A DNA stretch of 64,000 nucleotides from Pseudomonas fluorescens (GTDB taxonomy: Bacteria; Pseudomonadota; Gammaproteobacteria; Pseudomonadales; Pseudomonadaceae), in NCBI RefSeq assembly GCF_902497775.2, contig NZ_OZ024668.1, positions 5,006,326 to 5,070,325 of the forward strand. Reading direction: 5' to 3'. This document shows, one piece after another, positions 14,835 through 64,000 of the stretch (positions are counted from its first letter, which is position 1; every line of letters starts with the position of its first letter). The translations under genes were made by a program, and so were the position numbers. The notes under the pieces are model-generated. The model was not told the DNA's origin, ran no database searches, and worked only from the letters and a program-made list of their open reading frames with translations.

Positions 14835-14971
14835 ACGACGTCCTCGGGCAAGTTGACGAATGCGGATGGAGATTTCTCAGCCTAGACCGTTCGACACAGA
14901 GGGGAAGCTCTGGTTCGCGACTTTCTTGTCGCAAGCGGCAAACAAACCCGGAATAAAGCGGCAAATGGTTG

Positions 14972-14999
14972 TTCACATTTTGATCAACTCCGGTATGAT
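14972..14999 (+). promoter_or_regulatory. Sigma70-type promoter of the Cys-cluster gene
   Basis: TTCACA (14972-14977), a 16-base spacer and TATGAT (14994-14999) match the -35 and -10 hexamers at 5 of 6 positions each. The predicted start is near 15006, leaving a leader of about 30 bases before the ATG at 15035. Confidence 0.55.
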
Positions 15000-15034
15000 C
15001 GCGCGCCCACTAAAACATCTAAAACCTGAGCCTG

Positions 15035-15445: not shown

Positions 15446-15534
15446 GCGAGAACCACTGATCGGCACGCCCGACTGAAGCGAACTGGGCGTTTGACGATGG
15501 CGCCATGTTATGTTTACCTGACATTAGTCAATTA

Positions 15535-15554
15535 ATGTTATGGATACGTAACAT
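15535..15554. promoter_or_regulatory. Putative HipB-type operator
   Basis: ATGTTA (15535-15540) and TAACAT (15549-15554) form an inverted repeat with an eight-base spacer, the same 8-base geometry as E. coli hip operators, though with different half-site bases. The right arm includes the first bases of the start codon. A further ATGTTA half-site lies at 15505-15510. A possible promoter (TTTACC 15513-15518, 17 bases, TGTTAT 15536-15541) overlaps it, consistent with autorepression. Confidence 0.5.
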
Positions 15555-15804
15555 GGAGACCACACTGATTTCCCTGCGCATCGGCCACAGCATCGAACAG
15601 ATGAGAAAGCGCCGTGGCTTGACCAAAGTACAACTGGCGGAACGTATCGGCATCACTCGGCAGAAGCTCAGTGAGATCGAGCAGGGCTCAAGCACCGTCG
15701 CCATTTCGTTTTACAGCAGGGCACTGGATGCCCTGGGCTGTGAAGTCAAGGTCGTGGCAAAGTCCCTACCCACCCTGGATGAGCTTGAGGACGTGTTCCG
15801 ATGA
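15553..15804 (+). CDS. HipB-like antitoxin, XRE-family DNA-binding protein
   Basis: An 83-residue helix-turn-helix protein (about residues 8-62: SIEQMRKRRGLTKVQLAERIG then ITRQKLSEIEQGSSTV) with the C-terminal strand GCEVKVV seen in HipB-type antitoxins. ATG 15553 is chosen because the N-terminus then matches this family; the frame is open from 15505. Its stop overlaps the ATG of the following hipA-like remnant (ATGA, 15801-15804). It should bind the inverted repeat over its own start. With the toxin gene broken, it is now an orphan antitoxin or regulator. Confidence 0.75.
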   Translation: METTLISLRIGHSIEQMRKRRGLTKVQLAERIGITRQKLSEIEQGSSTVAISFYSRALDALGCEVKVVAKSLPTLDELEDVFR

Positions 15805-16119
15805 GCGCGGCAGACGAGCTGTCTTGTAGCAACGCCGCAAGGCGTCAGCGGCCAGATTTTCCAGCACCCAAACGGCGACTACGCCTTTCGCTACGCCGAC
15901 ACCGCTTCGGCCTCCATTGCGGTGAGCATGACCATGCCTCCTCGCCGCGAGGAGTACGTGTCCAGGGACCTTCATCCGATCTTCCAGATGAACCTTCCCG
16001 AAGGCTATGTACTGGAACAACTGCGCAATCGCCTGGCCAAAGTGGCAACCGTCAACCCTATGCTGCTGGCCATCTCCGGCAGCAACTCGCCGGCTGATTC
16101 AAACTTTCCACGCACAAAC
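15801..16119 (+). pseudogene. hipA-like toxin gene, N-terminal remnant (frameshifted and truncated)
   Basis: The ATG overlapping the antitoxin stop opens a frame (MSAADELSC) that quickly loses similarity. In the next frame, which is that of the antitoxin, the region 15835-16085 encodes a good HipA N-terminal domain: GQIFQHPNGDYAFRY, then SMTMPPRREEY, HPIFQMNLPEGYVLEQLRNRL and MLLAISG. So one small indel near the start breaks the frame, and similarity stops after about 85 residues; a complete HipA kinase has over 400, and no kinase domain is present. The remnant ends against the typA terminator. Recognition is from motif memory, not a search. Confidence 0.7.
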
Positions 16120-16120
16120 A

Positions 16121-16154
16121 AAAACGCCCCCGGCCTTGCGACCGGGGGCGTTTT
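16121..16154. terminator. Bidirectional Rho-independent terminator, mainly of typA
   Basis: Thirteen-base perfect stem (AAAACGCCCCCGG at 16121-16133 with its complement at 16142-16154), eight-base loop. On the minus strand the stem ends in a T run, correct for typA ending at 16175; the plus strand also has TTTT. Confidence 0.88.
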
Positions 16155-16174
16155 CATTCAGCCGGAACTAAGAC

Positions 16175-17995
16175 TCAGTTCTTGGCTTTCTTGGCAGCGC
16201 GGGTACGCTCGCCTTCGTCGAGGATCTTCTTGCGCAGACGGATCGACTTAGGAGTGACTTCGCACAGCTCGTCGTCCTGGATGAATTCCAGAGCCTGTTC
16301 CAGGGTGAAGCGAACAGGTGGAACCAGGGCGATGGTTTCGTCTTTACCCGAAGCACGCATGTTGTCGAGCTTCTTGCCCTTGGTAGGGTTGACGCCCAGG
16401 TCGTTGTCGCGGCTGTTCAGACCAACGATCTGACCGTTGTAGATCTCCTGGCCGTGCTCGACGAACAGCTTGCCGCGCGCCTGCAGAGTTTCCAGGGAGT
16501 AGGTCAGGGCCTTGCCGGTTTCAACCGAAACCAGTACGCCGTTCTGACGGCCGGACATGTGGCCGGACTTCATCGGAGCGTAACGGTCGAAGATCGAGGT
16601 CAGGATGCCTGCACCGTTGGTCAGGGTCAGGAACTGGTTACGGAAACCGATCAGACCACGGGCTGGAATGTTGTATTCCAGACGTACACGGCCCTTGCCA
16701 TCCGGAACCATGTTGGTCAGGTCGCCTTTACGCAGACCCATTTCTTCCATGACCTTGCCCTGGGAATCTTCAGGGATGTCGATGGTGACGTTTTCGAACG
16801 GCTCGTGCTTGGCGCCGTCGACTTCACGGATGATCACTTCCGGACGACCAACACCCATTTCGAAGCCTTCGCGACGCATGGTTTCGATCAGAACCGACAG
16901 GTGCAGCTCGCCACGGCCGGAAACCTTGAACTTGTCAGCCGAGTCGCCTTCTTCAACGCGCAGTGCAACGTTGTACAGCAGCTCTTTGTCCAGACGTTCC
17001 TTGATGTTGCGGGAAGTCACGAACTTGCCTTCTTTACCGCAGAACGGCGAGTCGTTGACCTGGAAGGTCATCGAAACGGTTGGTTCGTCAACGGTCAGCG
17101 GCTTCATCGCTTCAACTGCGTCCGGGGAGCACAGGGTGTCGGAGATGAACAGCTCGTCGAAACCGCTGATGCAGACGATGTCGCCAGCCTGGGCTTCTTC
17201 AACGTCGATGCGGTGCAGGCCGTGGTGGCCCATCAGCTTGAGGATACGACCGTTGCGCTTCTTGCCGTCGGTGTCGATGGCGACAACCGGGGTGTTTGGC
17301 TTGACGCGGCCACGGGCGATACGGCCAACGCCGATAACACCGAGGAAGCTGTTGTAGTCCAGAGCCGAGATCTGCATCTGGAACGGACCGTCACGGTCAA
17401 CAGCCGGCGCTGGTACGTTGTCGATGATCGACTGGTACAGCGGGGTCATGTCTTCGGCCATTTCGGTGTGGTCCAGACCGGCAATGCCGTTCAGGGCCGA
17501 GGCGTAGACGACTTTGAAGTCCAGCTGTTCTTCGGTGGCACCGAGGTTGTCGAACAGATCGAAGATCTGGTCCAGAACCCAGTCAGGACGCGCGCCCGGA
17601 CGGTCGACCTTGTTGATCACCACGATTGGACGCAGGCCGGCTTCGAAAGCCTTCTTGGTCACGAAACGGGTTTGCGGCATAGGGCCGTCTTGGGCGTCGA
17701 CCAGCAGCAGCACGGAGTCAACCATCGACATTACACGCTCAACCTCGCCACCGAAGTCGGCGTGGCCGGGGGTGTCGACGATGTTGATGTGGTAGCCGTT
17801 CCAGTTGATGGCGGTGTTTTTCGCCAGAATGGTAATACCGCGCTCTTTTTCCTGGTCGTTGGAGTCCATGACGCGCTCGTCGTTGAGCTCGTTACGCTCC
17901 AAAGTGCCGGACTGACGCAGGAGTTTGTCGACCAGGGTGGTTTTACCATGGTCAACGTGGGCGATGATGGCGATGTTACGCAGATTTTCGATCAC
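16175..17995 (-). CDS. typA: Ribosome-associated translational GTPase TypA/BipA
   Basis: GTPase of the EF-G class that binds ribosomes and helps 50S assembly and stress translation. The product has 606 residues. The G1 loop [13 protein letters not shown] lies at residues 12-24, followed by [10 protein letters not shown] (switch I), [15 protein letters not shown] (G3) and [10 protein letters not shown] (G4), then the BipA-specific C-terminal domain ([10 protein letters not shown]). The start is GTG at 17995, with a GAG element about eight bases before. Single gene with its own strong terminator. Confidence 0.97.
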
Positions 17996-18123
17996 GTGTG
18001 TATCTCGATCAGAGGATTCGGGTTGCCGCCCAGTCTAGGCGGCGAATATGAATGAATGGCGCTCAAACGGCCCGGTGGTCGGGAGGGCGATGGCGGATGC
18101 TCCCGCCATATAGCCCCGGCGTC

Positions 18124-19578
18124 TTATGTCGGACGATAAACGCGCACATTGGCATGTCCCTCACTGAGCAGATGGTGGGCATGCAGGCGACTCATTACTC
18201 CCTTGTCGCAATACAGCAAGTACTGGCGCGCGGCATCCAGCTCCTTGAAGCGACTGTTCAGGGCGTAGAACGGCAAGGCCTGGACCTCGATGCCGTCCAG
18301 TTCCAGGGGCTGGTCTTCCTGGGCATCAGGGTGGCGAATGTCGATCACCACCTGCCCGGCCAGCGCCTGGCTGACTTCTTCGATCTGGATATCTTCGCTG
18401 AGTTCATCGATCACATGGTCGATGGAGATCAGGCGGGCACGCTCCAGGGCACGCTCGAGCACGGCCATGTCGAACTGCTTTTCTTCGTAGTCGACACGAT
18501 GACGCTTGGCGCAGGTGGTCGGGTTCACCGAGATCACGCCGCAGTATTCAGGCATGTGCTTGGCGAACTCGGCGGTACCGATCTGCTGGGCCTGGTCGAT
18601 GATGTCCTGCTTGTGGCTGGCCAGCAAGGGGCGCAACACCAGTTTCTCGGTGGCCGAGTCGATCACCGAAAGGTTAGGCAGCGTCTGGCTCGACACCTGG
18701 GAGATGGCTTCACCGGTCACCAGGGCGTCGATCTGCAGGCGGTCGGCGATATTGGTCGCCGCGCGCAGCATCATGCGCTTGAGGGTCACACCCATGTAGC
18801 TGTTGTCGACCTTGCCGAGGATCTCGCCGACCACTTCTTCGAACGGCACGCTGACGAACAGCACGCGCTGGCTGCTGCCGTATTTCTTCCACAGGTAGTG
18901 GGCGACTTCCATCACCCCCAGTTCGTGGGCGCGGCCGCCAAGGTTGAAGAAGCAGAAGTGGGTCATCAGGCCACGGCGCATCATCTGGTAGGCGGCGACG
19001 GTGGAGTCGAAACCGCCGGACATCAGCACCAGGGTCTGCTCCAGCGCGCCCAGCGGGTAACCGCCGATGCCTTTGTGCTGGCTGTGGATGACGTACAGGC
19101 GCTTGTCGCGCACCTCGATGCGCACCTCGACTTCCGGCGTACGCAGGTCGATACCGGCGGCGCCGCACTGCTGGCGCAGCTGGCTGCCGACGTATCGGTC
19201 GACGTCCATCGAGCTGAAGTCGTGGTGGCCGCCGCGCTTGCAGCGTACGGCGAAGCGCTTGCCGGCCAGCAGGTGACCGAAGTGCTGCTTGCACTTGGCG
19301 ACGATGTCGTCGAAATCACCCAGCGGGTATTCGTCGACCTGCAGGAAGTGGGCAATGCCCGGCATGCAGGTCAGACGCTCGGTCATCTCGCGCAGGACTT
19401 TCTCGTCCTCGATGTGAGTGATCACTTCGAGGTTATCCCAGACACCGTTAACCGCGAGCGCAGGATCAAGGTCCTTGAGCACGTTGCGGATGTTGCGGGC
19501 CAGTTGGCGGATGAAGCGCTTGCGAACCGGCCGGCTCTTGATGGTGATCTCTGGGAAGACTTTTACGATTAGTTTCAT
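18124..19578 (-). CDS. thiI: tRNA 4-thiouridine synthase ThiI
   Basis: Activates and thiolates U8 of tRNA, and supplies sulfur for thiazole formation. The product has 484 residues: N-terminal ferredoxin-like and THUMP domains (to about 165), PP-loop ATPase with [13 protein letters not shown] (about 181-193), a Cys in PEYCGVIS equivalent to E. coli Cys344, and a C-terminal rhodanese domain with the persulfide Cys457 in [13 protein letters not shown] at 19578. It is divergent from glnA, with 330 bp between the two that hold the glnA control region. Confidence 0.96.
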
Positions 19579-53128: not shown

Positions 53129-53530
53129 TTAGAAGAACACGTCCGCGGGCACCGAAAAGCGTCTAGCCAGTTCACGCACCTGACGCAGATTGAGTTGACG
53201 CTTGCCCGCCAGTACCTCCGACACTACCGACTGCGAACCTACCTCCGGCAGATCGCTTTGTTTGAGGCCATGTTCCCGCATCAGGTAACGCAACGTATCG
53301 ACGCCACTGGCCCGGGATAAAGGGCGATGAGCATGGTCATAGGCCTGCAACATATCCCCCAGATGTACGGCGAGGCTTGCCAGCGGATGGCTTTCATCCT
53401 CGCCGACCAAACCCAGCAGTTCATCCAGCGACTCGACCAGTGCATCGTAGTCTGCTTCGCTGGCCGGCTTGCGCAGCAGCGGCGAAACGAACTGCCAATG
53501 CGCTGCTGCCTGCTTGATCAGTGGGCTCAT
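53129..53530 (-). CDS. higA: HigA-type antitoxin
   Basis: A 133-residue antitoxin: an N-terminal half that should bind the toxin (MSPLIKQAAAHW, DYDALVESLDELL) and a C-terminal XRE helix-turn-helix (about 65-125, LRYLMREHGLKQSDLPEVGS and RQLNLRQVRELARRF). It starts five bases after the toxin gene stop, with GGAGTGAAG as ribosome site, so it is translated second. It should bind the palindrome at 53876-53898. The gene ends 20 bp from the converging selO stop. Confidence 0.85.
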   Translation of the reverse strand: MSPLIKQAAAHWQFVSPLLRKPASEADYDALVESLDELLGLVGEDESHPLASLAVHLGDMLQAYDHAHRPLSRASGVDTLRYLMREHGLKQSDLPEVGSQSVVSEVLAGKRQLNLRQVRELARRFSVPADVFF

Positions 53531-53535
53531 CGCCT

Positions 53536-53823
53536 TCACTCCTTCCACTTGCCTTTGTCGTACTCGCCATGATCGAGCACATGCTTGATATACAGGCGCT
53601 GCGTCTTGTAGTGCACAATCGCGATCAGCCGCAATTTGTTGCCGCCGATATCGAATACATGCAACGCCCCTACCTTGTCAGTGGCAGGAAATGTCGCTTT
53701 CATCGCCGCAAAGTCTGTCGGATGGCAGGCCTTTACCAGTCGATACCAAGCGTCCAGCGCCGAGGCCGTTCGCGGCCATTTCGCCTTTGCCTCCCAGATG
53801 CGTTTTTCCGTTATCACATGCAT
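53536..53823 (-). CDS. higB: HigB-type mRNA interferase toxin
   Basis: A 95-residue RelE-superfamily toxin that cleaves mRNA on the ribosome. The HigB pattern MHVITEKRIWEAKAKWPRTA, LDAWYRLVKACHPTDFAAMKATFP, VFDIGGNKLRLIAIV and IKHVLDHGEYDKG is complete, including basic residues near the active site. ATG 53823 is chosen since the N-terminus then fits the family; the frame is open to 53928. Toxin-first order is typical of HigBA. The five bases between toxin stop and antitoxin start indicate coupling. Confidence 0.87.
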   Translation of the reverse strand: MHVITEKRIWEAKAKWPRTASALDAWYRLVKACHPTDFAAMKATFPATDKVGALHVFDIGGNKLRLIAIVHYKTQRLYIKHVLDHGEYDKGKWKE

Positions 53824-53874
53824 GCCACACCCGAATCGCAAAGTGCTTCCAGGGATGAGCTTGGGAGTACCGCA

Positions 53875-53903
53875 CAAATATCGCAATCTGCGATATTTAT
53901 CAA
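53875..53903 (-). promoter_or_regulatory. Promoter of higBA
   Basis: On the minus strand TTGATA (53898-53903), 17 bases and TATTTG (53875-53880). The palindromic operator fills the spacer, so repression by HigA(B) would block RNA polymerase. Confidence 0.5.
53876..53898. promoter_or_regulatory. Palindromic higBA operator
   Basis: A perfect inverted repeat with arms AAATATCGCA and TGCGATATTT, three-base centre. It lies 53 bp before the toxin start and inside the predicted promoter. The A/T-rich arms differ clearly from surrounding DNA. Confidence 0.72.
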
Positions 53904-54001
53904 AACATTCCGGATGATCGGCAAGCAAGCAGCGGCGGTATTTGTGTTTGCCCGATAATGTTCTTAGTGTTTCAACAATATCACCCTTCTCAGGAACTCA
54001 A

Positions 54002-54436
54002 ATGAGCGACCCACTACTCATCCCCTGCCCCCACTGCAACGGCCTCAACCGCATCCCCGGCGAGCGCCTTGGCGACAGCCCGAAATGCGGCCGCTGCAAG
54101 AGCCCGGTCCTGCTGAGCACGCCGTTCGAATTGAAACAGGGGGATTACGCCAGCCAGATCAAGGGCGATCTGCCGCTGCTGATCGATGTCTGGGCCGACT
54201 GGTGCGGGCCGTGCAAGTCGTTTGCGCCGATCTTCGCCCAGGCGGCCAGCCAACTGAGCGGGCGCTGCCGCCTGGCCAAGCTGGACAGCGAGGCCAACCA
54301 GCAACTGGCCGGGCAATTGGCGATTCGTTCGATTCCCAGCCTGATCCTGTTCAAAAACGGCCGGGAAGTGGCGCGCCAGAGCGGTGCATTCCCACTCCAG
54401 CAATTGCTGGAGTGGCTGCGCAGCCAGGGGATTTAA
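54002..54436 (+). CDS. trxC: Thioredoxin 2 (TrxC)
   Basis: Cytoplasmic disulfide reductase with a zinc module. The product has 144 residues: N-terminal Zn motif Cys9-x2-Cys12 ... Cys29-x2-Cys32, and thioredoxin domain with active site WCGPC (Cys68, Cys71) and cis-Pro loop IRSIPSL. AGGA precedes ATG 54002. Its TAA overlaps the parA TAA on the other strand (TTAA, 54433-54436), so the two genes converge without any gap. Confidence 0.95.
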   Translation: MSDPLLIPCPHCNGLNRIPGERLGDSPKCGRCKSPVLLSTPFELKQGDYASQIKGDLPLLIDVWADWCGPCKSFAPIFAQAASQLSGRCRLAKLDSEANQQLAGQLAIRSIPSLILFKNGREVARQSGAFPLQQLLEWLRSQGI

Positions 54437-55206
54437 GCGTTTTCTTCGAGCAGGGCGTGCAGTTCGACAAACTGCTGGGTCAGCTTGTGCCGCGGCTCCA
54501 GGTGAATCAGCGGCAGGCTGGCCTGGTGTGATTCACGCATTTTCACCGAGCTGTTGAGGTACACCGGCAGTACCGGCAGGCCCTCGGCGATCAACTCGTC
54601 GAGCATCTGCTGGGGCAGGCTGGCACGGGCCTGGAACTGGTTGACGACGATGCCTTCGACCTGCAGCTCTTCGTTGTGATCGTCCTTGAGCTCTTCGATT
54701 TCGGCCAGCAGGCCATACAGAGCCTGGCGGGAAAAACTGTCGCAATCAAAGGGTATCAGCACACGATCAGCGGCGATCAACGCCGAAACCGCATAAAAGT
54801 TAAGCGCTGGCGGCGTATCCAGGTAGATCCGGTCGTAGTCTTCGTCCAGCTCATCCAGCAGTTTGCGCAGCTTGTTGATCTTGTGCTTGGCCTCAAGCTT
54901 GGGCTGTAGGTCAGCAAGCTCGGCGGTGGCAGTCACCACATGCAGGTTGTCGAAGGGCGTTTCGTAGATATCGACCTTGTTCTTCTTGGCAAACGGCCCC
55001 GACGACAGGGTCTGCTTGAAGAAGTCGGCAATGCCCATGGGAATGTCCTCGCCAGTCAACCCGGTGAGGTACTGGGTCGAGTTGGCCTGGGCATCCAGGT
55101 CGATCAGCAGGGTCCGATAGCCTTCATTGGCACTCACCGCCGCCAGGTTGCAGGCAATGCTCGACTTGCCAACGCCACCTTTCTGATTGAACACCACGCG
55201 CCGCAT
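54433..55206 (-). CDS. Orphan ParA-family ATPase
   Basis: A 257-residue MinD/ParA-type ATPase with deviant Walker A KGGVGKSS (residues 9-16, signature Lys9), switch LIDLDAQANSTQYL and YLDTPPALNFYAVSAL. No ParB gene or parS is beside it, so it is not the chromosomal partition protein. Comparable orphan ParAs position other complexes. It is divergent from the APE operon, separated by 317 bp. Its cargo is unknown. Confidence 0.9.
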   Translation of the reverse strand: MRRVVFNQKGGVGKSSIACNLAAVSANEGYRTLLIDLDAQANSTQYLTGLTGEDIPMGIADFFKQTLSSGPFAKKNKVDIYETPFDNLHVVTATAELADLQPKLEAKHKINKLRKLLDELDEDYDRIYLDTPPALNFYAVSALIAADRVLIPFDCDSFSRQALYGLLAEIEELKDDHNEELQVEGIVVNQFQARASLPQQMLDELIAEGLPVLPVYLNSSVKMRESHQASLPLIHLEPRHKLTQQFVELHALLEENA

Positions 55207-55523
55207 GGAATGACCTCCGTGTGTCTGGGGATGAGCGAGTATGTGCGGCCAATGCCGGCTTGACCAGCCGCCAATGGCTCAAGTTTTCGGCGATCCGACC
55301 GAATAAACATGACCGCCATTGGTCGGGAAACCTCGGATCGGTCCGACGAATCTTCAGGACCGCTGTCTGTTGCACACGACAATCCGTACAACCATTATTT
55401 GCTACACACCAACTCCACCGGGATAATGCGCGCCACTCGGCGATTGCGCCACACCCCTGTCAGGTCGTTGTTCCGAGTTACTCCCTCGGCAAGGAAGTCC
55501 CTCAGGGCGGGAAGTACAGCAAA
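55207..55523. other. Intergenic region between parA and the APE operon
   Basis: 317 bp with no credible coding frame of its own. It holds a short dyad TCGGA-TCGG-TCCGA (55333-55346), a weak CCGACC/GGTCGG pair around it, and a weak sigma70 candidate TTGCAC (55370-55375), 17 bases, CATTAT (55393-55398). This should contain the APE promoter and the parA promoter, but I cannot assign an operator with confidence. Confidence 0.5.
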
Positions 55524-56240
55524 GTGATCACATTCAATATCAGCCAGTGGCGCGCGTGGGCACCAGGCCTGCAGACGGCTGCCGATTGGCAGGCCTGGAG
55601 CCAGGCAAAGCACGTGCCGGCAGTGGCTGAACAGGCACCGGATGTGTCGTTTTTGCCGGCCATGCAGCGCCGGCGCCTGAGCCACCTGGCGCGCATGGCC
55701 TTCGCCGTGGGCTGGCCACTGGCCGAAAGTTGTAAGGATTTGCCGCTGGTGTTCGTTTCCCGGCATGGCGAAACCCCACGCACCTTCGAGATCCTCAGCG
55801 ACCTGGCCAACGAGCAGCCGCTGTCGCCAACCCAGTTCAGCCTGTCGGTACACAACGCGGTCATCGGCCTATGGTCGATCATGCGTGGCGAAACCAGTGA
55901 AATGACCGCCCTGGCTGCTGCCGGTGACGGTTTTGAACAAGGCGTGATGGAAGCCGCCTGCCTGCTGCGCGAAGGCGCGCCGGCGGTGCTGCTGATTGTG
56001 ACTGAAGAACAACCGCCTGCGGCCTACGGCCCATGGATTGCTGACGTGCCCTTCGCCTATGCCCTGGGCCTGCTGTTGACTCCTGGCGATGACTGGCAGT
56101 TGACCCTTGGCGAGAACAGCGCTGGCGCACCTGCGAGCGAACCTCATGCCTTGAGCTGGTTGCGTTGCCTGCTCAAGAGCGACAGCACCTGTACCCACAC
56201 CTGGAAGAGCCGCACATGGAACTGGCAACGCAAGCTATAA
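55524..56240 (+). CDS. Beta-ketoacyl synthase-like chain-length factor (APE cluster)
   Basis: Resembles the PF13723 (Ketoacyl-synt_2) proteins that act as chain-length partner of the polyene ketosynthase (ApeC in E. coli). The product has 238 residues, half a normal ketosynthase, with ITFNISQWRAWAPG, FLPAMQRRRLSHLARMAF, VFVSRHGETPRTFEIL and LSPTQFSLSVHNAVIGL; the usual catalytic Cys position has no cysteine in an SxC nucleophile motif. The start is GTG at 55524 with GGGAAG about ten bases before; the frame opens at 55221. First gene of the operon; it overlaps the next by 25 bp. Confidence 0.82.
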   Translation: MITFNISQWRAWAPGLQTAADWQAWSQAKHVPAVAEQAPDVSFLPAMQRRRLSHLARMAFAVGWPLAESCKDLPLVFVSRHGETPRTFEILSDLANEQPLSPTQFSLSVHNAVIGLWSIMRGETSEMTALAAAGDGFEQGVMEAACLLREGAPAVLLIVTEEQPPAAYGPWIADVPFAYALGLLLTPGDDWQLTLGENSAGAPASEPHALSWLRCLLKSDSTCTHTWKSRTWNWQRKL

Positions 56241-57028
56241 GCAGACCGCGCGACGCCTATTACTGGCGCCTGCTCGCCACCGCCGTCAGCTTCCTGCTGT
56301 TCGGCGTCGGCGGCCTGTGCCTGCGCCTGCTGGTCTTCCCGTTGCTGGCCTGCCTGCCCGGCGATGCCGCCCGCCAGCGCCAACGCGCCCGGCACACCAT
56401 CAGCTGGCTGTTCTGGCGCTTCATCCGTTTCATGGTCGCCAGCGGCGTGCTCACTTATGAGGTCAAGGGTGCCGAAAAGCTCGGCCGCCCAGGGCAGATG
56501 ATCATCGCCAACCACCCGTCGCTGATCGACGTGGTGTTCCTCATCGGGCTGGTGCGCCAGGCCAACTGCGTGGTCAAGCAGAGCCTCTGGCACAACCCCT
56601 GCACCCGTGGCCCGGTGCGTTCGGCCGAATACATCAGCAACGACGGCAGCATGGACATGCTCGACAGCGCCGTGGCGGCGCTGCAAGGCGGCCAGACCCT
56701 GATCATCTTCCCCGAAGGCACCCGCACCCAGCCAGGCCAGCCGCCGACCTTTCATCGCGGCGCGGCAGCCATTGCCCTGCGCGGTGCGAAGATCATCACC
56801 CCGGTCACCATCAAGGTCGCCCCCAGCACCCTGACCAAGGCCGAACCCTGGTACCGCATTCCCCAGCGCCGGGTGCATTTCAGCTTGCAGGTCGGTGCCG
56901 ACATCGACCCGCAGACCTTCGCCGCCCAAGGCCCCGCCCCACAGGCCTCGCGCAAACTCAATGATCACCTGCATCAGCACTTCACCAAGGAGCTCGCCGA
57001 AGATGAGCGATCCACAGAACACCCTTAA
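56216..57028 (+). CDS. 1-acyl-glycerol-3-phosphate-type acyltransferase (APE cluster)
   Basis: Membrane acyltransferase of the PlsC class, 270 residues. An N-terminal helix pair (about 15-50) is followed by the NHPSLIDVVFL motif (NH-x4-D), SLWHNPCTRGPVRSAEYI and FPEGTR in the catalytic domain. It probably transfers an acyl or polyenoyl chain during assembly of the membrane-bound APE lipid. ATG 56216, with GGAAGAG upstream. It overlaps the upstream gene by 25 bp and the first ACP gene by 26 bp, which signals translational coupling. Confidence 0.88.
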   Translation: MELATQAISRPRDAYYWRLLATAVSFLLFGVGGLCLRLLVFPLLACLPGDAARQRQRARHTISWLFWRFIRFMVASGVLTYEVKGAEKLGRPGQMIIANHPSLIDVVFLIGLVRQANCVVKQSLWHNPCTRGPVRSAEYISNDGSMDMLDSAVAALQGGQTLIIFPEGTRTQPGQPPTFHRGAAAIALRGAKIITPVTIKVAPSTLTKAEPWYRIPQRRVHFSLQVGADIDPQTFAAQGPAPQASRKLNDHLHQHFTKELAEDERSTEHP

Positions 57029-57275
57029 CCACGACATCAAGCTGTTGATCATCGACGCCCTGGGCCTGGAAGACATCAGCGCCCAGGACATCGGCGACGA
57101 GCAGACCCTGTTCGGCGAAGGCCTGGGCCTGGATTCGGTGGACGCCCTCGAACTCGGCCTGGCGATCCAGAAGAAGTACGGCATCAAGATCGACGCCGAC
57201 GCCAAGGACACCCGTAATCATTTCACCAGCGTGGCCAGCCTTGCGGCTTTCGTCACCGCCAAACAGGCAGCCTGA
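57003..57275 (+). CDS. Acyl carrier protein 1 (APE cluster)
   Basis: A 90-residue ACP with phosphopantetheine Ser in GLGLDSVDALELG. Helix II and III patterns are typical. One of two ACPs of the operon (ApeE/ApeF in E. coli). It starts inside the acyltransferase gene (overlap 26 bp) and ends nine bases before the next ACP. Confidence 0.93.
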   Translation: MSDPQNTLNHDIKLLIIDALGLEDISAQDIGDEQTLFGEGLGLDSVDALELGLAIQKKYGIKIDADAKDTRNHFTSVASLAAFVTAKQAA

Positions 57276-57284
57276 GACAGCACC

Positions 57285-57539
57285 ATGCAAACCCGCGAAG
57301 ACATCTTCAACACCCTGCGCGACGCCCTGGTCGAACTGTTCGAACTCGACCCGGCCAGCATCAGCCTGGACTCGAACCTGTATCAGGACCTGGAAATCGA
57401 CAGCATCGACGCCGTCGACCTGATCGATCACATCAAACGCCAGACCGGCAAGAAAATCGCCGCCGACGAGTTCAAGGCCGTGCGTACGGTCAATGACGTG
57501 GTCGAGGCGGTATACCGCCTGGTCAACACCGCGGCATGA
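57285..57539 (+). CDS. Acyl carrier protein 2 (APE cluster)
   Basis: An 84-residue ACP with Ser in LEIDSIDAVDL. It is clearly different in sequence from the first ACP, so starter loading and chain extension may be divided between them. The stop overlaps the start of the next gene (ATGA at 57536-57539). Confidence 0.93.
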   Translation: MQTREDIFNTLRDALVELFELDPASISLDSNLYQDLEIDSIDAVDLIDHIKRQTGKKIAADEFKAVRTVNDVVEAVYRLVNTAA

Positions 57540-58081
57540 AACGCCTGATCGGCCTCGGCCTGCTGCTGGCCGGTCTGCTGTACCCCTTTGCGGTGTATTT
57601 TGGCATGGCTCACTTTGCCCCCTGGCAATTCGGCCTGCTGCTCGGCGGCCTGTGGCTGGCGCGTGCCTTGAGCGAACCGAGGCGACCCGGCGGGCACTGG
57701 ATGGCCGTAGCGGCGATCGCCTTCTGCGCATTGCTGGCGCTATTCAACAGCCCGCAGCTGTTGCGTTGGTACCCGGTGCTGATCAGTACTTTCATGCTTG
57801 GCCTGTTCGGCCTGAGCCTCAAGTTCGGTCCACCGGTGGCCGAGCGTCTGGCGCGGCTGCGTGAGCCGGAGCTACCTGCCGTGGCGATCCACTACACGCG
57901 CCAGGTGACCAAGGTCTGGAGCCTGTTCTTCCTGGCCAACGGCCTGGTCGCCGCGGCCCTGACCCTGTGGGCGCCGCTGAGCTGGTGGACCCTGTACAAC
58001 GGCCTGATCGCCTACGGGCTGATAGGCCTGCTGTTTGCCATTGAATGGCTGATAAGACAACGCGTGCGAGGACGCTCATGA
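57536..58081 (+). CDS. Small membrane protein (COG4648 type, APE cluster)
   Basis: A 181-residue integral membrane protein with about five helices (LIGLGLLLAGLLYPFAVYFG at the start) and a central basic part with RLREPELPAVAIHYTRQVTKVWSLFF. Proteins of this type are a fixed part of aryl-polyene clusters (ApeG position) and are of unknown mechanism. It overlaps both neighbours by four bases (57536-57539 and 58078-58081). Confidence 0.82.
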   Translation: MKRLIGLGLLLAGLLYPFAVYFGMAHFAPWQFGLLLGGLWLARALSEPRRPGGHWMAVAAIAFCALLALFNSPQLLRWYPVLISTFMLGLFGLSLKFGPPVAERLARLREPELPAVAIHYTRQVTKVWSLFFLANGLVAAALTLWAPLSWWTLYNGLIAYGLIGLLFAIEWLIRQRVRGRS

Positions 58082-59757
58082 AATGGATTGCCCTTGAGCA
58101 ACTGCTGCACCCAAGCGATACGCCACGGCCGGTGAGCATCGCCCCGGAACTGGATCACGCTACCTTGTGCCAGCAAGCCCTGCAACTGGCCGCAGGCCTG
58201 CAGCGGCGGGGTGTTAAACGCATGGCCGTACACCTGGAAGACGCCGCGCAACTGGCCGTGGCCCTGCTTGGCGCCTGGCGGGCCGGCGTGCAGGTACTGC
58301 TGCCGGCCGACCTGCAAGCCCAGACCCGCCAGCGCTGGCTCGGCGAGGTCGAGCTGTGGCTGAGCGACCAGGCCCAAGACACGGCGCTGGACGCCCTGTT
58401 CGAAGCACCCCTGGCCGCCGCAGACCTGGACCTGGACACCTGCCAACTGAGCCTGTGCACCTCCGGCTCCAGCGGCGAACCCAAGCGCATCGACAAGAGC
58501 CTGCGCCAGCTGGCCAACGAAGTGCAAGCCCTGGAGCAGCTGTGGGGCAAGGACCTGGGCGCTGCCTGCATCATCGGCAGCGTCGCCACCCAGCACATCT
58601 ACGGCCTGCTGTTTCGTGTGCTCTGGCCGCTGTGCGCCGGGCGCTCGTTCGTGCGTCGCCAACTGCCCTTCCCCGAAGACCTGCAGCGCGCCAGCCGCGA
58701 GCACCCGGCCTTTGCCTGGGTGGCCAGCCCGGCGCTGCTCAAGCGCATGGGCGACAACCTCGATTGGCCAGCGTTGAGCACGGTACGCCGGGTATTTTCC
58801 TCCGGCGGCGAACTGCCGGCCAGCGCCGCCCAGGCCTTGCACCAGCGCCTGCAGCAATGGCCGACAGAAATTCTCGGCAGCTCGGAAACCGGCGGTATCG
58901 CCTGGCGCCAGGGCGATAGCCTGTGGCAACCCTTTGCCGACGTGCGCCTGAGCCAGAACCAACAAGGCGCACTGTGCATCGAGTCGGCTTACCTGCCGCC
59001 CGGTCATATCGAGCAGAGCGCCGATGCCGTCGAGTTCGCCGCTGACGGTCGCTTCCGCCTGCTTGGGCGCCTGGACCGAATCGTCAAACTGGAAGAAAAA
59101 CGCATCTCCCTGCCGATGCTCGAACAGGCCCTGGTCGCCCATGGCTGGGTCGAGGAAGCGCGCCTGGCGGTGATCCAGGAAAACCGCGCCAGCCTCGGCG
59201 CCCTGCTGGTGCTCAGCGCCGCGGGCCTGTACGCCTTGCGCAACCAGGGCCGGCGCGCGCTCACCGAGGGCCTGCGCCAACACCTCAGCCAGCACTGCGA
59301 AGCCCTGGCTCTGCCACGGCGCTGGCGCCTGCTGCGGCAATTGCCATTCAACGCCCAAGGCAAACTGCCCCAGGCCGAACTCGAAGCCCTGCTGCTGGCA
59401 CCACGGCCCAAAGACCCGGAAGTGCTGAGCCAGGCCAAGGTCGACGGCGAGTTGCAGCTGCAACTGGCGGTATCGGCGGATCTCGCCTACTTCAACGGCC
59501 ACTTCCCACAAACTCCGGTACTGCCGGGCGTGGTCCAGGTCGACTGGGCACTGGCCCTGGGGCAACCGCTGCTCGACCGGCCGCGCCGGTTCGCCGGCAT
59601 GGAAGTGCTGAAATTCCAGCAACTGGTACGCCCCGGCGACCCGCTGCAACTGACCCTGCGTTTCGATGCCGAGCGCGGCAAATTGTACTTTGCCTACAGC
59701 AACGCCGGGGTGCCCTGCTCCAGCGGCCGTATCGTGCTGGAGGCCGTCGGTGAATAA
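58078..59757 (+). CDS. AMP-dependent acyl ligase fused to a hotdog dehydratase (APE cluster)
   Basis: A 559-residue two-domain protein. Residues about 1-440 are an adenylate-forming ligase: [17 protein letters not shown] (the P-loop), [11 protein letters not shown] and [17 protein letters not shown], expected to load an aryl acid on ACP (ApeH role). Residues about 450-559 are a hotdog fold with [21 protein letters not shown], the FabA/FabZ-like dehydratase (ApeI role), which in E. coli is a separate gene. The fusion is seen directly. ATG 58078 overlaps the preceding stop; the frame opens at 58045. Confidence 0.88.
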
Positions 59758-60484
59758 GCCCTGTGCGGTGATCCCGGTGTACAACCACGAACGGGCGGTG
59801 CCGGCGGTGGTTGCCGACCTGCTCGCAGCCGGTCTGCCCTGCGTGCTGGTCGATGACGCCAGCAGCCCGGCCTGCGCCACCGTGCTGGGCCAGCTGGCCG
59901 AACAGCAGCAGGTGTTTCTGGTGACGTTGCAGGTCAACCAGGGCAAGGGCGGCGCGGTCATGACCGGCCTGCGCGCAGCCGCGCGCCTGGGTTTCAGCCA
60001 TGCCTTGCAGGTGGATGCCGACGGCCAGCATGACCTGGCCGATGTCAGCCGCTTTCTCGAACAGTCGCAGGCTTATCCACAGGCGCTGATTTGCGGTTAT
60101 CCACAATACGACGCCAGCGTGCCCAAGGGCCGTCTGTATGCGCGTTACCTGACCCACGTGTGGGTGTGGATCAACAGCCTGTCGCTGCAGATTCCCGACT
60201 CCATGTGCGGCTTTCGCGTGTACCCGCTGCCGCCGACCCTGGCACTGATCGACGCGGTGAGCCTCGGCAAGCGCATGGACTTCGACCCGGAGATCCTCGT
60301 GCGCCTGGCCTGGCGCAACCAGCCGATGCGTTGGCTGCCGACCAAGGTGCATTACCCTGCCGATGGCCTCTCGCACTTTCGCCTGTTCCACGACAACGCG
60401 CTGATCTCGAAGATGCACACCAAGTTGTTCTTCGGCATGTTGCTGCGCGCCCCGGCCATTCTCTGGCGGCGGTGGCAGGCATGA
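59750..60484 (+). CDS. Family 2 glycosyltransferase (APE cluster)
   Basis: A 244-residue GT2 enzyme: AVIPVYNHERAV at the N-terminus, VDDASSP, the metal-binding QVDADGQHD (DxD variant) and SMCGFRVYPL acceptor loop. It should sugar-modify the polyene or its lipid anchor. The start is GTG 59750, with GGAGG six bases upstream; it overlaps the ligase by eight bases. The stop overlaps the next start (60481-60484). Confidence 0.88.
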   Translation: MNKPCAVIPVYNHERAVPAVVADLLAAGLPCVLVDDASSPACATVLGQLAEQQQVFLVTLQVNQGKGGAVMTGLRAAARLGFSHALQVDADGQHDLADVSRFLEQSQAYPQALICGYPQYDASVPKGRLYARYLTHVWVWINSLSLQIPDSMCGFRVYPLPPTLALIDAVSLGKRMDFDPEILVRLAWRNQPMRWLPTKVHYPADGLSHFRLFHDNALISKMHTKLFFGMLLRAPAILWRRWQA

Positions 60485-61419
60485 GCAACGGCGAACAACA
60501 CTGGGCCCAACACCAGGAGCGTGGCAGTTTCTGGCTGATGAAGCTGACTGCCGTGGGCATCAAGCTGCTCGGCCGGCGCCTGCTCAGCCCGGTGCTGTAT
60601 GGCATCGTCCTGTACTTCTTTGTGTTTGGCCGCCGAGCCCGGCAGAGCATCTGGCAATACCAGCAGCACCTGGCCGACTGGAGCGGCCAAGCCAGCCTAC
60701 GCCCCAGTCAGCGACGGGTGTTCGGCCAGTTCATGGCCTTCGCCGATGCCCTGCTGGACAAGCTTGATGTGTGGAACGGCAAGTTGCGCCTGGAACAGAT
60801 CGAGATCGTCGACCCCGGCAAGCTGCACACCCAGTTGCGCGCCGAACGCGGGCAGATGCTGGTGGGCGCGCACCTGGGCAATCTTGAAGTCTGCCGCGCC
60901 CTGGCCGAGCTTGGCGAGCAGGTGACCATGAACGTGCTGGTGCACACCAAGCACGCCGAACAGTTCAATCGCCTGCTCGGTGAATCCGGGGCGAACAACT
61001 TGCGGCTGATCCAGGTCAGCGAGCTGGACCCGGCAATCATGCTGCAACTGAGCCAGCGCCTGGATCGCGGCGAGTGGCTGGCGATTGCTGGCGACCGCGT
61101 GCCGCTGCACGGTGCGCGCACGGTCGAGGCGGATTTTCTCGGCCAGCGCGCCGCCTTCCCGCAAGGCCCGTGGCTACTGGCCGGGCTGCTCAAGTGCCGG
61201 CTCAACCTGTTCTTCTGCCTCAAGCAGCAAGGCCGCTACCAGGTGATCCTCGAACCCTTCGCCGAGGCCATCGAATGGCGCCGCGGCCAGCGCGATCAGG
61301 TGATCGCCGACTGGGCCGGGCGCTATGCCGAACGCCTGGGCCACTATTGCCTGCAAGCGCCGCAGCAATGGTTCAATTTCTACCCTTTCTGGAAGACCGA
61401 TGACGATGCATCCGCATAA
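60481..61419 (+). CDS. LpxL/HtrB-type lysophospholipid acyltransferase (APE cluster)
   Basis: A 312-residue membrane acyltransferase of the lipid A LPLAT family: N-terminal helix (LLSPVLYGIVLYFFVFG), then LVGAHLGNLEVCRAL (the H-x4-E/D position is replaced by HLGNLE), IAGDRVPLHGARTVEADFLGQ and PWLLAGLLKCRLNLFF. It belongs to the APE set and may attach the polyenoyl group to a lipid. It overlaps the GT gene by four bases and the lyase gene by about 20. Confidence 0.85.
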   Translation: MSNGEQHWAQHQERGSFWLMKLTAVGIKLLGRRLLSPVLYGIVLYFFVFGRRARQSIWQYQQHLADWSGQASLRPSQRRVFGQFMAFADALLDKLDVWNGKLRLEQIEIVDPGKLHTQLRAERGQMLVGAHLGNLEVCRALAELGEQVTMNVLVHTKHAEQFNRLLGESGANNLRLIQVSELDPAIMLQLSQRLDRGEWLAIAGDRVPLHGARTVEADFLGQRAAFPQGPWLLAGLLKCRLNLFFCLKQQGRYQVILEPFAEAIEWRRGQRDQVIADWAGRYAERLGHYCLQAPQQWFNFYPFWKTDDDASA

Positions 61420-62944
61420 GCCCGTGACCTTCGGCGCGCTGCCGCTGGCAATCGAAGACGTCCTCGCCCTGGCCAACCGCCAGGCCGAAACCCGCCTGCA
61501 GGACGACGCCGAATACCGCGCGCGGATTGCCCGTGGCGCGCAGTTCCTCGACTCGCTGCTGGACAAGGAAGGGGTGATCTACGGCGTGACCACCGGCTAC
61601 GGCGACTCGTGCGTGGTGGCGGTGCCGCTGGAGCATGTCGAAGCGCTGCCCAAGCACCTGTACACCTTCCATGGCTGTGGCCTCGGCCAGTTGCTCGATG
61701 CGCCGGCCACCCGTGCGGTGCTGGCCGCCCGCTTGCAGTCGCTGTGCCATGGCGTCTCTGGTGTGCGCGTCGAGTTGCTGGAGCGCCTGCAGGCGTTTCT
61801 TGCCCACGACATCCTGCCGCTGATTCCCCAGGAAGGCTCGGTGGGTGCCAGCGGCGACCTGACGCCGCTGTCCTACGTGGCCGCGACCCTGTCGGGCGAG
61901 CGCGGGGTCATGTACCACGGCGAACGCCGCAGCGCCGCCGATGTACACCGCGAGCTGGGCTGGCAGCCGCTGGTACTGCGGCCCAAGGAAGCCCTGGCGT
62001 TGATGAACGGCACCGCGGTGATGACCGGCCTGGCCTGCCTGGCATTCGCCCGCGCCGATTACCTGCTCAAGCTCGCTACACGGATCACCGCGCTGAACGT
62101 GGTCGCCCTGCAAGGTAACCCGGAGCACTTCGACGAGCGCCTGTTCGCCGCCAAGCCGCACCCGGGGCAAATGCAGGTGGCTGCCTGGTTGCGCCAAGAC
62201 CTCGCTATCGACGCACCGACCGCGCCGCTGCACCGCCTGCAGGACCGTTACTCGCTACGCTGTGCGCCGCATGTGCTGGGTGTGCTGGCCGACAGCCTGG
62301 GCTGGCTGCGCGGCTTTATCGAAACCGAACTGAACAGCGCCAACGACAACCCGATCATCGACGCCGAAGCCGAACGCGTACTGCACGGCGGGCACTTCTA
62401 CGGCGGCCATATCGCATTTGCCATGGACAGCCTGAAGAACCTGGTGGCCAACGTCGCCGACCTGCTCGACCGCCAGCTCGCCTTGCTGGTCGACGTGCGC
62501 TACAACCACGGCCTGCCGAGCAACCTGTCGGGCGCCAGCGCCGAGCGGGCGATGCTCAACCATGGCTTCAAGGCCGTGCAGATCGGCGCCAGCGCCTGGA
62601 CCGCCGAAGCCCTGAAAAACACCATGCCGGCCAGCGTGTTCTCACGCTCCACCGAGTGCCACAACCAGGACAAGGTGAGCATGGGCACCATCGCCGCCCG
62701 CGATGCCCTGCGGGTGCTGGAGCTGACCGAACAGGTCGCCGCCGCCGCCTTGCTGGCCGCCAACCAGGGCGTCTGGCTGCGCAGCCGCGAAGCCGATGCC
62801 CGCGACCTGCCGCCAGCCTTGGCCGAAATGCACGCGGCGCTGCTTGAAGAGTTCGCCCCGGTGATCGAAGACCGCGCCCTGGAAAGCGACCTGCGCCTGT
62901 GCCTGAGCCGAATTGCCGAACAACACTGGAGGCTGCATGCGTAG
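61400..62944 (+). CDS. MIO-type aromatic amino acid ammonia-lyase (HAL/TAL family, APE cluster)
   Basis: A 514-residue ammonia-lyase homologous to HutH but clearly distinct. The MIO triad is Ala150-Ser151-Gly152 in [13 protein letters not shown]; also YGVTTGYGDS, KEALALMNGTAVMTG, LNSANDNPIID and NQDKVSMGT. It should make an aryl acid starter (for example 4-coumarate from Tyr) for the polyene. The selectivity loop reads LYTFHGCGLG, against [10 protein letters not shown] in HutH and LVHHLASGVG in tyrosine lyase, so substrate is open. Starts are ATG 61400 or 61406. Confidence 0.88.
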   Translation: MTMHPHKPVTFGALPLAIEDVLALANRQAETRLQDDAEYRARIARGAQFLDSLLDKEGVIYGVTTGYGDSCVVAVPLEHVEALPKHLYTFHGCGLGQLLDAPATRAVLAARLQSLCHGVSGVRVELLERLQAFLAHDILPLIPQEGSVGASGDLTPLSYVAATLSGERGVMYHGERRSAADVHRELGWQPLVLRPKEALALMNGTAVMTGLACLAFARADYLLKLATRITALNVVALQGNPEHFDERLFAAKPHPGQMQVAAWLRQDLAIDAPTAPLHRLQDRYSLRCAPHVLGVLADSLGWLRGFIETELNSANDNPIIDAEAERVLHGGHFYGGHIAFAMDSLKNLVANVADLLDRQLALLVDVRYNHGLPSNLSGASAERAMLNHGFKAVQIGASAWTAEALKNTMPASVFSRSTECHNQDKVSMGTIAARDALRVLELTEQVAAAALLAANQGVWLRSREADARDLPPALAEMHAALLEEFAPVIEDRALESDLRLCLSRIAEQHWRLHA

Positions 62945-63362
62945 TCAGGGAGTACTGCACGTCGATACCGAAGTGCTGGTGCCGTTCTTCGATGTCGACA
63001 GCATGCTGGTGGTCTGGCACGGGCACTACGTCAAATACCTCGAGGTAGCGCGCTGCGCGCTGCTCGACCACCTCGATCACAACTACCTGCAGATGCAGGC
63101 CTCGGGCTTCGCCTGGCCGGTGATCGACCTGCAACTGCGCTACATGCGTGGCGCCACTTTCGGCCAGCGCCTGAGCGTGCGCGCCAGCCTGGTGGAGTGG
63201 GAGAACCGTCTGAAGATCAACTACCTGATCAGCGATGCCGCCACCGGCGAGCGCATGACCCGCGCCAGCTCCGTGCAGGTCGCGGTCGAAATCGCCAGCG
63301 GCGAGATGCAACTGGCTTCGCCGCAGGTGATGCTCGACGCCGTGAACAAGGTGCTGCCATGA
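62937..63362 (+). CDS. Hotdog-fold acyl-CoA/ACP thioesterase (APE cluster)
   Basis: A 141-residue 4HBT-type thioesterase: VPFFDVDSMLVVWHGHYVKYLEVAR carries the catalytic Asp/Glu and the typical WHGxY motif. It probably releases or edits the polyene or aryl thioester. GGAGG lies five bases upstream of ATG 62937. It overlaps the lyase by eight bases and the next gene by four. Confidence 0.9.
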   Translation: MRSQGVLHVDTEVLVPFFDVDSMLVVWHGHYVKYLEVARCALLDHLDHNYLQMQASGFAWPVIDLQLRYMRGATFGQRLSVRASLVEWENRLKINYLISDAATGERMTRASSVQVAVEIASGEMQLASPQVMLDAVNKVLP

Positions 63363-63958
63363 AGACGCTGCTGCGTGGCCTGCTGTGCCTCGGCCTGCTG
63401 GCCAGTTGCCCCCTGGCCCAGGCCTTTGGCCTCGATGATCTGAGCAAGCAACTGGGCGAACCTGCGGTCATCAAGGGCCCGTTCATCCAGGAAAAACACC
63501 TGCGCGCCCTCCCGCAGCCGCTGGTGAGCAAAGGCCAGTTCGTGCTAGCCCGTGACCATGGCTTGCTCTGGCTGCTACAAACGCCGCTCAGGCAGGACTA
63601 CCGCCTCAATGCCCAGGGCATCGCCCGCCGCGATCCGTCCGGCTGGCAGATGCTGCCGGGCAAGAGCGCCGGCGCCGAGCAGAACCGCCTGTTCTTCGCC
63701 GTGCTGCAAGGCGACAGCAGTGGCCTGCAGCGTGACTTCGAGCTGAGCCTGCAAGGCGACGCCGCGCACTGGCAACTGCGCCTGACGCCGCGTTCGCTGC
63801 TGCTCAAGCAGGTGTTCAGCCAGATCGATATCGATGGCGGGCGCTACGTCGAACGCATCCAACTGCTGGAAACCCAGGGCGACAGCACCGTATTGCGCAT
63901 GCCATCGAGCAGCAGCGCCAGCCTGACCGACACGGAGCGCCGCGATTTTGCCGAGTGA
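63359..63958 (+). CDS. LolA-like periplasmic lipid carrier (APE cluster)
   Basis: A 199-residue exported protein: signal peptide (ends AQA), then a LolA-type fold with KGPFIQEKHLRALPQPLVSKGQFV and LLWLLQTPLRQDYRLN, LKQVFSQIDIDGGRYVERIQL. It should carry the hydrophobic product across the periplasm to the outer membrane. It follows the thioesterase with an ATGA overlap and precedes the exporter. Confidence 0.85.
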   Translation: MKTLLRGLLCLGLLASCPLAQAFGLDDLSKQLGEPAVIKGPFIQEKHLRALPQPLVSKGQFVLARDHGLLWLLQTPLRQDYRLNAQGIARRDPSGWQMLPGKSAGAEQNRLFFAVLQGDSSGLQRDFELSLQGDAAHWQLRLTPRSLLLKQVFSQIDIDGGRYVERIQLLETQGDSTVLRMPSSSSASLTDTERRDFAE

Positions 63959-64000
63959 GCGCCTGTTACCACGGCTGTTTTTGCTGCTGCTGATCGCTGT
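63948..64000 (+). CDS. Start of a probable MMPL-family exporter, cut by window end
   Basis: Only about 17 residues are visible: a TTG start, PSERLLPRLFLLLLIA, basic then hydrophobic as at an N-terminal membrane helix. It overlaps the LolA-like gene by 11 bases. In APE clusters this place is taken by an MMPL (RND-like) exporter. The assignment rests on position plus a hydrophobic N-terminus. Confidence 0.45.
   Translation, partial: MPSERLLPRLFLLLLIA

Follow-up and report, generated by a model that had tools for sequence, protein, structure and literature searches.

A lyase-bearing aryl polyene cluster of Pseudomonas fluorescens and the covariation of its starter ligase with the ammonia-lyase gene

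RESULTS

Gene content and order of the cluster

The DNA analyzed here, referred to as the window, is a stretch of 64,000 nucleotides from the complete 5.97-Mb genome of Pseudomonas fluorescens GCF_902497775.2, positions 5006326 to 5070325 of contig NZ_OZ024668.1 (C1 of genome G000 in our numbering). It contains the beginning of an aryl polyene (APE) gene cluster that carries a gene for an aromatic amino acid lyase of the 4-methylideneimidazole-5-one (MIO) type, and the central observation of this study is that the pocket of the cluster's starter ligase, ApeH, varies with the presence of that lyase gene. The cluster consists of 20 co-directional genes on the plus strand, which occupy 8.5 kb at the right end of the window and a further 9.5 kb beyond it. 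At 18 of the 19 gene junctions the neighbors overlap by 1 to 26 bp, and the remaining junction is a 9-bp gap. A promoter-like site lies upstream at 55399 to 55427, a weak signal given that 1 was found against 0.2 expected by chance.

The first gene encodes an ApeC-like chain-length factor (CLF; 55524 to 56240; Ketoacyl-synt_2, PF13723, 1.8e-77), for which the GTG start at 55524 is uncertain. It is followed by an ApeD-like lysophospholipid acyltransferase (LPLAT; 56216 to 57028; PF01553, 5.5e-15) that also matches the Escherichia coli locus, by two acyl carrier proteins recognized by family match, namely the presumed starter carrier ACP1 (ApeE-like; 57003 to 57275) and ACP2 (ApeF-like; 57285 to 57539), and by a COG4648 membrane protein (57536 to 58081) that is homologous to E. 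coli ApeG and has no Pfam or NCBIfam match. The next gene (58078 to 59757) encodes the ApeH starter ligase, approximately residues 1 to 445, fused to an ApeI dehydratase (PF00501 and PF22818, the ApeI-like match at 6e-18). A family 2 glycosyltransferase (GT2; 59750 to 60484) and an LpxL/LPLAT-type acyltransferase (60481 to 61419) correspond to the first and second parts of E. coli ApeJ, respectively. The MIO lyase (61406 to 62944; Lyase_aromatic, 4e-159) comes next, and then, by family match, an ApeK-like 4HBT thioesterase (62937 to 63362), the LolA-like periplasmic carrier ApeL (63359 to 63958), and an ApeM-like MMPL exporter that starts at 63948 and extends past the window (63948 to 64000 lie inside it).

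The remainder of the cluster was located in a contiguous 30-kb stretch to the right of the window (L003), of which positions 9949 to 19463 equal C1 5070273 to 5079787. There, the exporter (from 9949) is followed by a membrane protein with a structural match to NapA (12258 to 13418, or 66257 to 67417 in window numbering), a flavin halogenase-like protein with Lys76 and a WxWxIP motif (13405 to 14652, or 67404 to 68651), a methyltransferase recognized by family match (14649 to 15383), and a small lipoprotein. The lipoprotein sits at the ApeN position and is assigned by position only, with no Pfam or NCBIfam match where a DUF3261/LolB-like partner was expected. Family matches identify the last four genes (15862 to 19463) as the ketosynthase (KS) ApeO, the dehydratase ApeP (PF22817), the ketoreductase (KR) ApeQ, and the KS ApeR.

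A first-pass annotation, made from the letters of the window, had described twelve genes on one strand with overlaps of 4 to 26 bp at most junctions. The positions, the strand, and the overlaps are as it gave them, together with one 9-bp gap, and within the window 11 of the genes are complete while the twelfth, the exporter, is represented by its first 53 bases. It had also counted two acyltransferases plus an LPLAT; only two such genes exist (at 56216 and 60481), and one had been entered twice. The same annotation predicted that the ketosynthases and the ketoreductase would lie to the right of the window, where we did find ApeO, ApeP, the KR, and ApeR, and it held that a lack of KS, KR, and methyltransferase genes downstream would indicate a different lipid pathway; the contiguous genome carries all three kinds. 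Its observation of APE genes is thus confirmed, and of its label "APE/xanthomonadin-like" the first half is borne out by 15 E. coli ape genes matched in the same order. The second half is less apt, since no chorismatase match was found among the 20 cluster proteins (Pfam; NCBIfam, with the best 25 matches listed where lists were long), and the nearest described type is the Aliivibrio fischeri cluster, APE_Vf. The APE identity follows from the curated ApeI-like and ApeP-like families, which like PF00501 exceed their Pfam cutoffs, from a CLF lacking the ACTS motif beside two KSs that both have the ACTS-type cysteine, and from the ordered E. coli match.

Covariation of the starter ligase with the lyase gene

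Clusters for comparison were drawn by their CLF and not by the lyase. PF13723 was present in 86 of 370 genomes, our own included, and a score above 140 bits, required for assignment to the APE type, was reached in 24 (our own and 23 others). Two of these yielded no ligase (G421, where the contig ends, and G387, a hit without a surrounding cluster), and after addition of E. coli and of the relatives G025 and G054, a usable ligase was available for 25 clusters of the first set, 16 lyase bearing and 9 lyase free. The discovery scan of ApeH columns used 24 of the 25 (15 lyase bearing and 9 lyase free), one near duplicate (L112) being omitted. The follow-up of the 86 CLF genomes took 80 of the other 85, after five weak ones (G323, G337, G130, G162, and G282) were dropped. 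For a held-out set, 79 genomes were considered, and 60 loci were fetched after omission of 8 already in hand, 8 of the same genus including our own, and 3 weak ones. The ligase was usable in 57 of these 60 (31 lyase bearing and 26 lyase free), the exceptions being L123, L146, and L160. In L123, from genome G784, the APE cluster is rearranged and its fetched stretch gave no ligase match, and the sole lyase match in that genome is in two pieces at 39 to 41% identity.

In the P. fluorescens ApeH, the pocket reads I174 L178 F240 S242 G273. Residue 273 was Gly in 15 of 15 lyase-bearing clusters of the discovery set versus 1 of 9 lyase-free clusters, and none of 40 label shuffles reached this. The held-out set gave 31 of 31 versus 5 of 26 (Fisher 3e-11, uncorrected for kinship), and two further columns behaved alike there, with Leu or Ile at 178 in 31/31 versus 5/26 and Ser242 in 31/31 versus 6/26. 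Over all 82 clusters, Gly273 is present in 47 of 47 lyase-bearing and 6 of 35 lyase-free clusters. The full signature [ILV][LI][FVL]SG at 174/178/240/242/273 holds for all 47 lyase-bearing ligases, and the lyase-free ones mostly have Thr178, Ala242, and Val, Ile, or Ala at 273. Counted by family (38 families, E. coli as its own family, one cell per family and state), there were 23 cells with lyase and Gly, none with lyase and another residue, 5 with Gly and no lyase, and 14 with neither. The two states also occur within one family (f24), where two lyase-bearing clusters read ILFSG, three lyase-free ones read TTFAA, and ILHSG and ILYSG are found in two more that lack the lyase.

The best ApeH column reached a phi of 0.86, compared with a maximum of 0.46 over 60 label shuffles. 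Twelve other cluster proteins were scanned in the same way, and 11 had no column over a phi of 0.6. The twelfth, ACP1, had two, T70 (0.65) and I55 (0.64), with D64 at 0.56, all weaker than ApeH. An ACP1-type protein serves as starter carrier in the passages of PMC8358021 and PMC8253772 that concern it. Separately, it may be noted that ACP1 residues I55, D64, and T70 perhaps track the lyase because they meet the ligase. Nine other ApeH columns (156, 157, 183, 189, 215, 315, 339, 376, and 396) were dropped because their discovery signal faded or was lost in the held-out clusters. The NCBIfam 4-coumarate-CoA ligase profile was likewise set aside as evidence for coumarate, because it is also the best profile for four lyase-free ApeH proteins lacking Gly273; it scores 95 bits here and 75 to 96 bits in the four tried, all under the cutoff.

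Shared descent was considered in two trees. A tree of five proteins including ApeH, built for the first set, requires at least 6 changes in lyase presence. A control tree of 82 rows, made by a quick method from four proteins other than ApeH, requires at least 12, and approximately 6.5 independent pairs on that tree link Gly273 with the lyase and 0 go against it (P = 0.03). Leu178 gave a like result, and Ser242 gave 5 to 0 (P = 0.06). The halogenase-like flavoprotein, used as a control trait, gave 2.2 versus 0.9 (P = 1; scored only within fetched stretches). On the cluster tree the flavoprotein switches between presence and absence at least 14 times, and a test there found no coupling between it and the lyase. 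Among lyase-bearing clusters, lyase distances and core-protein distances are correlated (r = 0.88, matched in 0 of 500 permutations), so the lyase is probably mostly inherited with the cluster, and many of its presence changes are probably losses.

When ApeH is aligned with adenylation domains whose structures have been solved, columns 240 and 242 fall three and one residues before a conserved Gly243, at the places that we number 299 and 301 in the PheA specificity code. The alignments do not reach residue 273, which was placed by the A5 motif: it lies three residues after the Glu of SETG, presumably at position 330. With this assumed numbering, three of the best five columns coincide with the nine specificity positions among 404 columns, for which the chance is 8e-5. 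An AlphaFold2 model of the ApeH-ApeI fusion (pLDDT [predicted local distance difference test score], 87) has as its closest folds a benzoate-CoA ligase, the salicylate/benzoate ligase CahJ, and a feruloyl-CoA synthetase. Gly273 in place of the Val, Ile, or Ala of most lyase-free enzymes would suit a longer acid.

Distribution of the lyase and of accessory genes

Among 57 relatives surveyed, the CLF was present in 30 of 36 genomes of the same genus, our own included. The lyase, at 82 to 100% identity, lies beside the CLF on the same contig in all 30, and a lyase of the cluster type occurs in none of the 6 same-genus genomes without the CLF; together with Pfam matches far above their cutoffs, this speaks against a chance grouping of genes. 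The 30 clusters also contain a close flavoprotein (29), a close methyltransferase (29), and the membrane protein (20). A second sample, of 80 named Pseudomonas loci, was drawn by the lyase, the best 80 of 573 relatives being kept. In it, median identity among the 20 cluster proteins is highest for the lyase (90.2%), by which the loci had been drawn, and the nearest named record by lyase among the matches listed is Pseudomonas wadenswilerensis at 97% (near-identical records may be left out). The lyase has a fixed slot: in 45 of 46 fetched lyase-bearing loci, taken from both locus sets and measured between stop-to-stop frames, the start of the thioesterase lies no more than 300 bp past the lyase, and in the other it lies 417 bp past it.

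The halogenase-like flavoprotein keeps Lys76 and WxWxIP, which we take to be flavin-halogenase motifs, in all 76 Pseudomonas loci whose copy exceeds 350 amino acids and in all 15 other copies. As these motifs are kept, many Pseudomonas APEs may have a halogenated pigment head. The membrane protein has no Pfam match; a model of the P. wadenswilerensis copy (pLDDT, 85) is most similar to the Na+/H+ antiporter NapA (TM, 0.65).

To the left of the cluster are a HigB-type toxin gene with a helix-turn-helix partner, the latter under the Pfam cutoff (53129 to 53928, minus strand), and then a thioredoxin-2-like gene (53942 to 54436, plus strand) and a ParA-type ATPase gene (54433 to 55206, minus strand) that overlap tail to tail beside the cluster.

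Proposed pathway and choice of starter

We consider it likely that this is a complete APE cluster of the lyase-bearing, APE_Vf-like type whose starter derives from the lyase product and is loaded by ApeH. In the proposed pathway, whose catalytic steps are all drawn by inference from characterized homologs, the MIO lyase would deaminate L-tyrosine, or less likely L-phenylalanine, to p-coumarate or cinnamate, and the ApeH half of the fusion would adenylate this acid and load it onto ACP1. ApeO/ApeC and ApeR would extend the starter with malonyl units from ACP2, with reduction by ApeQ and dehydration by ApeI and ApeP, to give a conjugated aryl polyene acid. With the first double bond already present in p-coumarate and cinnamate, the chain would take one malonyl round fewer than it would from 4-hydroxybenzoate. 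Head decoration would fall to the methyltransferase and the halogenase-like flavoprotein, the GT2 and the two acyltransferases would join the polyene acid to a lipid, and the MMPL, LolA-like, and lipoprotein components would carry the product to the outer membrane. The first-pass annotation had proposed an amino acid-derived starter with no evidence of its own; since ApeH has a characteristic pocket whenever the lyase gene is present, the covariation now supports that proposal and does not prove it. The best reading of the ligase residues is that ApeH loads p-coumarate, less likely cinnamate, and that lyase-free clusters mostly load 4-hydroxybenzoate.

The starter could instead be 4-hydroxybenzoate made from chorismate by UbiC, with the lyase doing something else, such as a side activity or supply of an anchor acid. 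UbiC is encoded in this genome, so 4-hydroxybenzoate is available. A 4-hydroxybenzoate starter was assigned for clusters of E. coli, which has no lyase, Xenorhabdus, and Acinetobacter in passages of PMC8253772 and PMC8358021, with in vitro evidence in the case of the Xenorhabdus ligase and a prediction in that of E. coli, and five lyase-free clusters share the ligase type of the lyase-bearing ones. What speaks against this alternative is that the ApeH columns follow the lyase in the discovery set, in the held-out set, and in independent contrasts, and that 11 of the 12 other scanned proteins do not, so we regard it as unlikely.

The exceptions to the covariation are six lyase-free clusters with Gly273 (G656, G131, G613, G575, G709, and G774). 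Genome G656 carries, away from its cluster, a lyase of the APE type with 76% identity (C22:169453-170967), the only such case among the 34 lyase-free genomes searched, and it is possible that this gene supplies a lyase-type ligase in trans. The other five may represent recent losses, promiscuous ligases, users of environmental coumarate, or an incomplete rule. The asymmetry, in which the lyase never occurs without Gly and Gly sometimes occurs without the lyase, fits a requirement of the lyase for Gly and fits a promiscuous ligase as well.

Several points weigh against a starter made by the lyase, quite apart from the presence of UbiC. A search of the genomes of the five remaining exceptions found no lyase of this type, and all five keep the Gly-type ligase. 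The contrast test is barely significant for Gly273 and is not significant for Ser242, and the flavoprotein control with which it is compared covers the fetched stretches only. Positions 174 and 178 align beside, and not on, the specificity positions as we have numbered them. The column scan was limited to ApeH and 12 other proteins, as many stretches stop short of ApeP, ApeQ, ApeR, the methyltransferase, and the lipoprotein, and columns that follow the lyase may occur outside ApeH and ACP1 as well. Finally, with a motif 1 of Phe-His, the substrate selectivity of the lyase is not readable from its sequence.

That last point bears on a variant in which the enzyme acts on phenylalanine and supplies cinnamate as the starter, and the phenyl head is at first unsubstituted and hydroxylated later, perhaps by the flavoprotein. 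The cluster lyase keeps Ala-Ser-Gly, Tyr59, Tyr282, and Arg285, with Phe-His as motif 1 and Gln as motif 2. Across the 47 lyases of the cluster type, the Ala-Ser-Gly, the two Tyr, the Arg, and the motif 2 Gln are all conserved, and motif 1 is Phe-His in 36 and Tyr-His in 11. According to a passage of PMC3992019, the first residue of motif 1 is Phe or His in phenylalanine ammonia-lyases and His in tyrosine ammonia-lyases (TALs), which would favor phenylalanine, as would Leu or Ile at ligase position 178 where most lyase-free clusters have Thr. The second residue, His, is that of histidine ammonia-lyase (HAL) and of an aligned tyrosine aminomutase; published APE heads are hydroxylated; and the flavoprotein is missing from the lyase-bearing G025 cluster and does not track the lyase. 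The attempt to read tyrosine or phenylalanine selectivity from motif residues was given up, Phe-His being mixed and PMC3992019 describing, in the part concerned, a HAL-like motif 1 in a genuine tyrosine lyase. The named TAL profiles gave 404 of 1,000 bits for BagA/FevW and 310 of 700 bits for FlxA. We judge a phenylalanine-derived starter improbable and favor p-coumarate from tyrosine.

That the genes encode some other type II lipid pathway, one that yields no aryl polyene, is very unlikely: the cluster is known here from its genes, and against such a pathway stand the curated ApeI- and ApeP-like families and the ordered match with a cluster of known product. That the lyase is a second HAL present by accident is hardly credible, because, in spite of a shared Pfam family and the name histidine ammonia-lyase in several sources, it scores 380 bits against a hutH equivalog cutoff of 539, its slot in the cluster is fixed, and its conserved motifs, including the motif 2 Gln, make a role in histidine catabolism unlikely beside a true HutH in the same genome (window 1219 to 2643, minus strand; 740 bits versus a cutoff of 524) with Ser-His as motif 1 and Glu as motif 2.

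DISCUSSION

Two proposed starter types in aryl polyene clusters

The findings suggest, with somewhat better than even confidence on our part, that two APE starter types have been interchanged many times and that a short residue code in ApeH predicts the starter, including in lyase-free clusters with a coumarate-type ligase. If so, the head-group supply of many APE clusters would be predictable from sequence, and lyase-free clusters with a coumarate-type ligase would have to obtain the acid elsewhere, for example from plants or from a lyase encoded away from the cluster, as in G656. Passages of PMC5851621 and PMC8719888 use a lyase of the A. fischeri type as a marker, its role being untried there, and the open-license literature searched for aryl polyene, coumaric acid, and starter unit yielded no paper joining the three, nor did the passages found on aryl polyene ApeH and lyase link the lyase with the ligase. 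What is new here is the test of the lyase's role through ligase covariation, a replicated and lineage-controlled comparison that supports an amino acid-derived starter and turns the lyase from a marker into a sharp and cheaply testable starter hypothesis.

Comparison with known systems

The lyase-bearing Pseudomonas APE cluster is of a kind already reported, as PMC5851621 describes for Pseudomonas donghuensis SVBP6 an APE cluster that includes an ammonia lyase and is likened to APE_Vf, and PMC8719888 lists the ammonia lyase as characteristic of Pseudomonas APE clusters. By description, the cluster resembles APE_Vf from A. fischeri ES114 (MIBiG BGC0000837) in its ketosynthase and reductase set, its acyl- and glycosyltransferases, and its ammonia lyase. 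The halogenase-like and antiporter-like genes found here are unmentioned in the passages of PMC5851621 and PMC8719888 that describe the APE_Vf and Pseudomonas clusters.

Relative to the E. coli cluster APE_Ec (apeA to apeR), whose gene table in PMC8253772 was used for naming, apeC, -D, -E, -F, -G, -H, -I, -J, -K, -L, -M, -O, -P, -Q, and -R are matched by sequence and in the same order. APE_Ec is without the lyase, the flavoprotein, and the antiporter-like gene, all three of which are present in the P. fluorescens cluster, and a DNA search for the lyase in E. coli genomes gave no match. ApeH and ApeI are separate in E. coli and fused here, the single E. coli ApeJ with GT2 and acyltransferase parts corresponds to two genes here, and the methyltransferase, upstream as ApeB in E. 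coli, lies here between the exporter and ApeO. The ligase signature differs as well, reading LTLAV in E. coli and ILFSG in the P. fluorescens enzyme.

Flexirubin clusters (flx), with the tyrosine lyase FlxA and the coumarate ligase FlxY, share with this cluster an MIO lyase and an aryl ligase that start an aryl polyene, as described in part of PMC3992019, although the lyase of this cluster falls well under the FlxA cutoff. Xanthomonadin and arcuflavin clusters employ an XanB2-type chorismatase, in contrast to the cluster described here, in whose 20 proteins no chorismatase match was found, and have in common with it a type II aryl polyene system with a halogenase gene; the arcuflavin cluster of Azoarcus also has, according to the relevant passage of PMC3949708, a putative Na/H antiporter gene, arcG, similar to that of the membrane protein with the predicted NapA fold.

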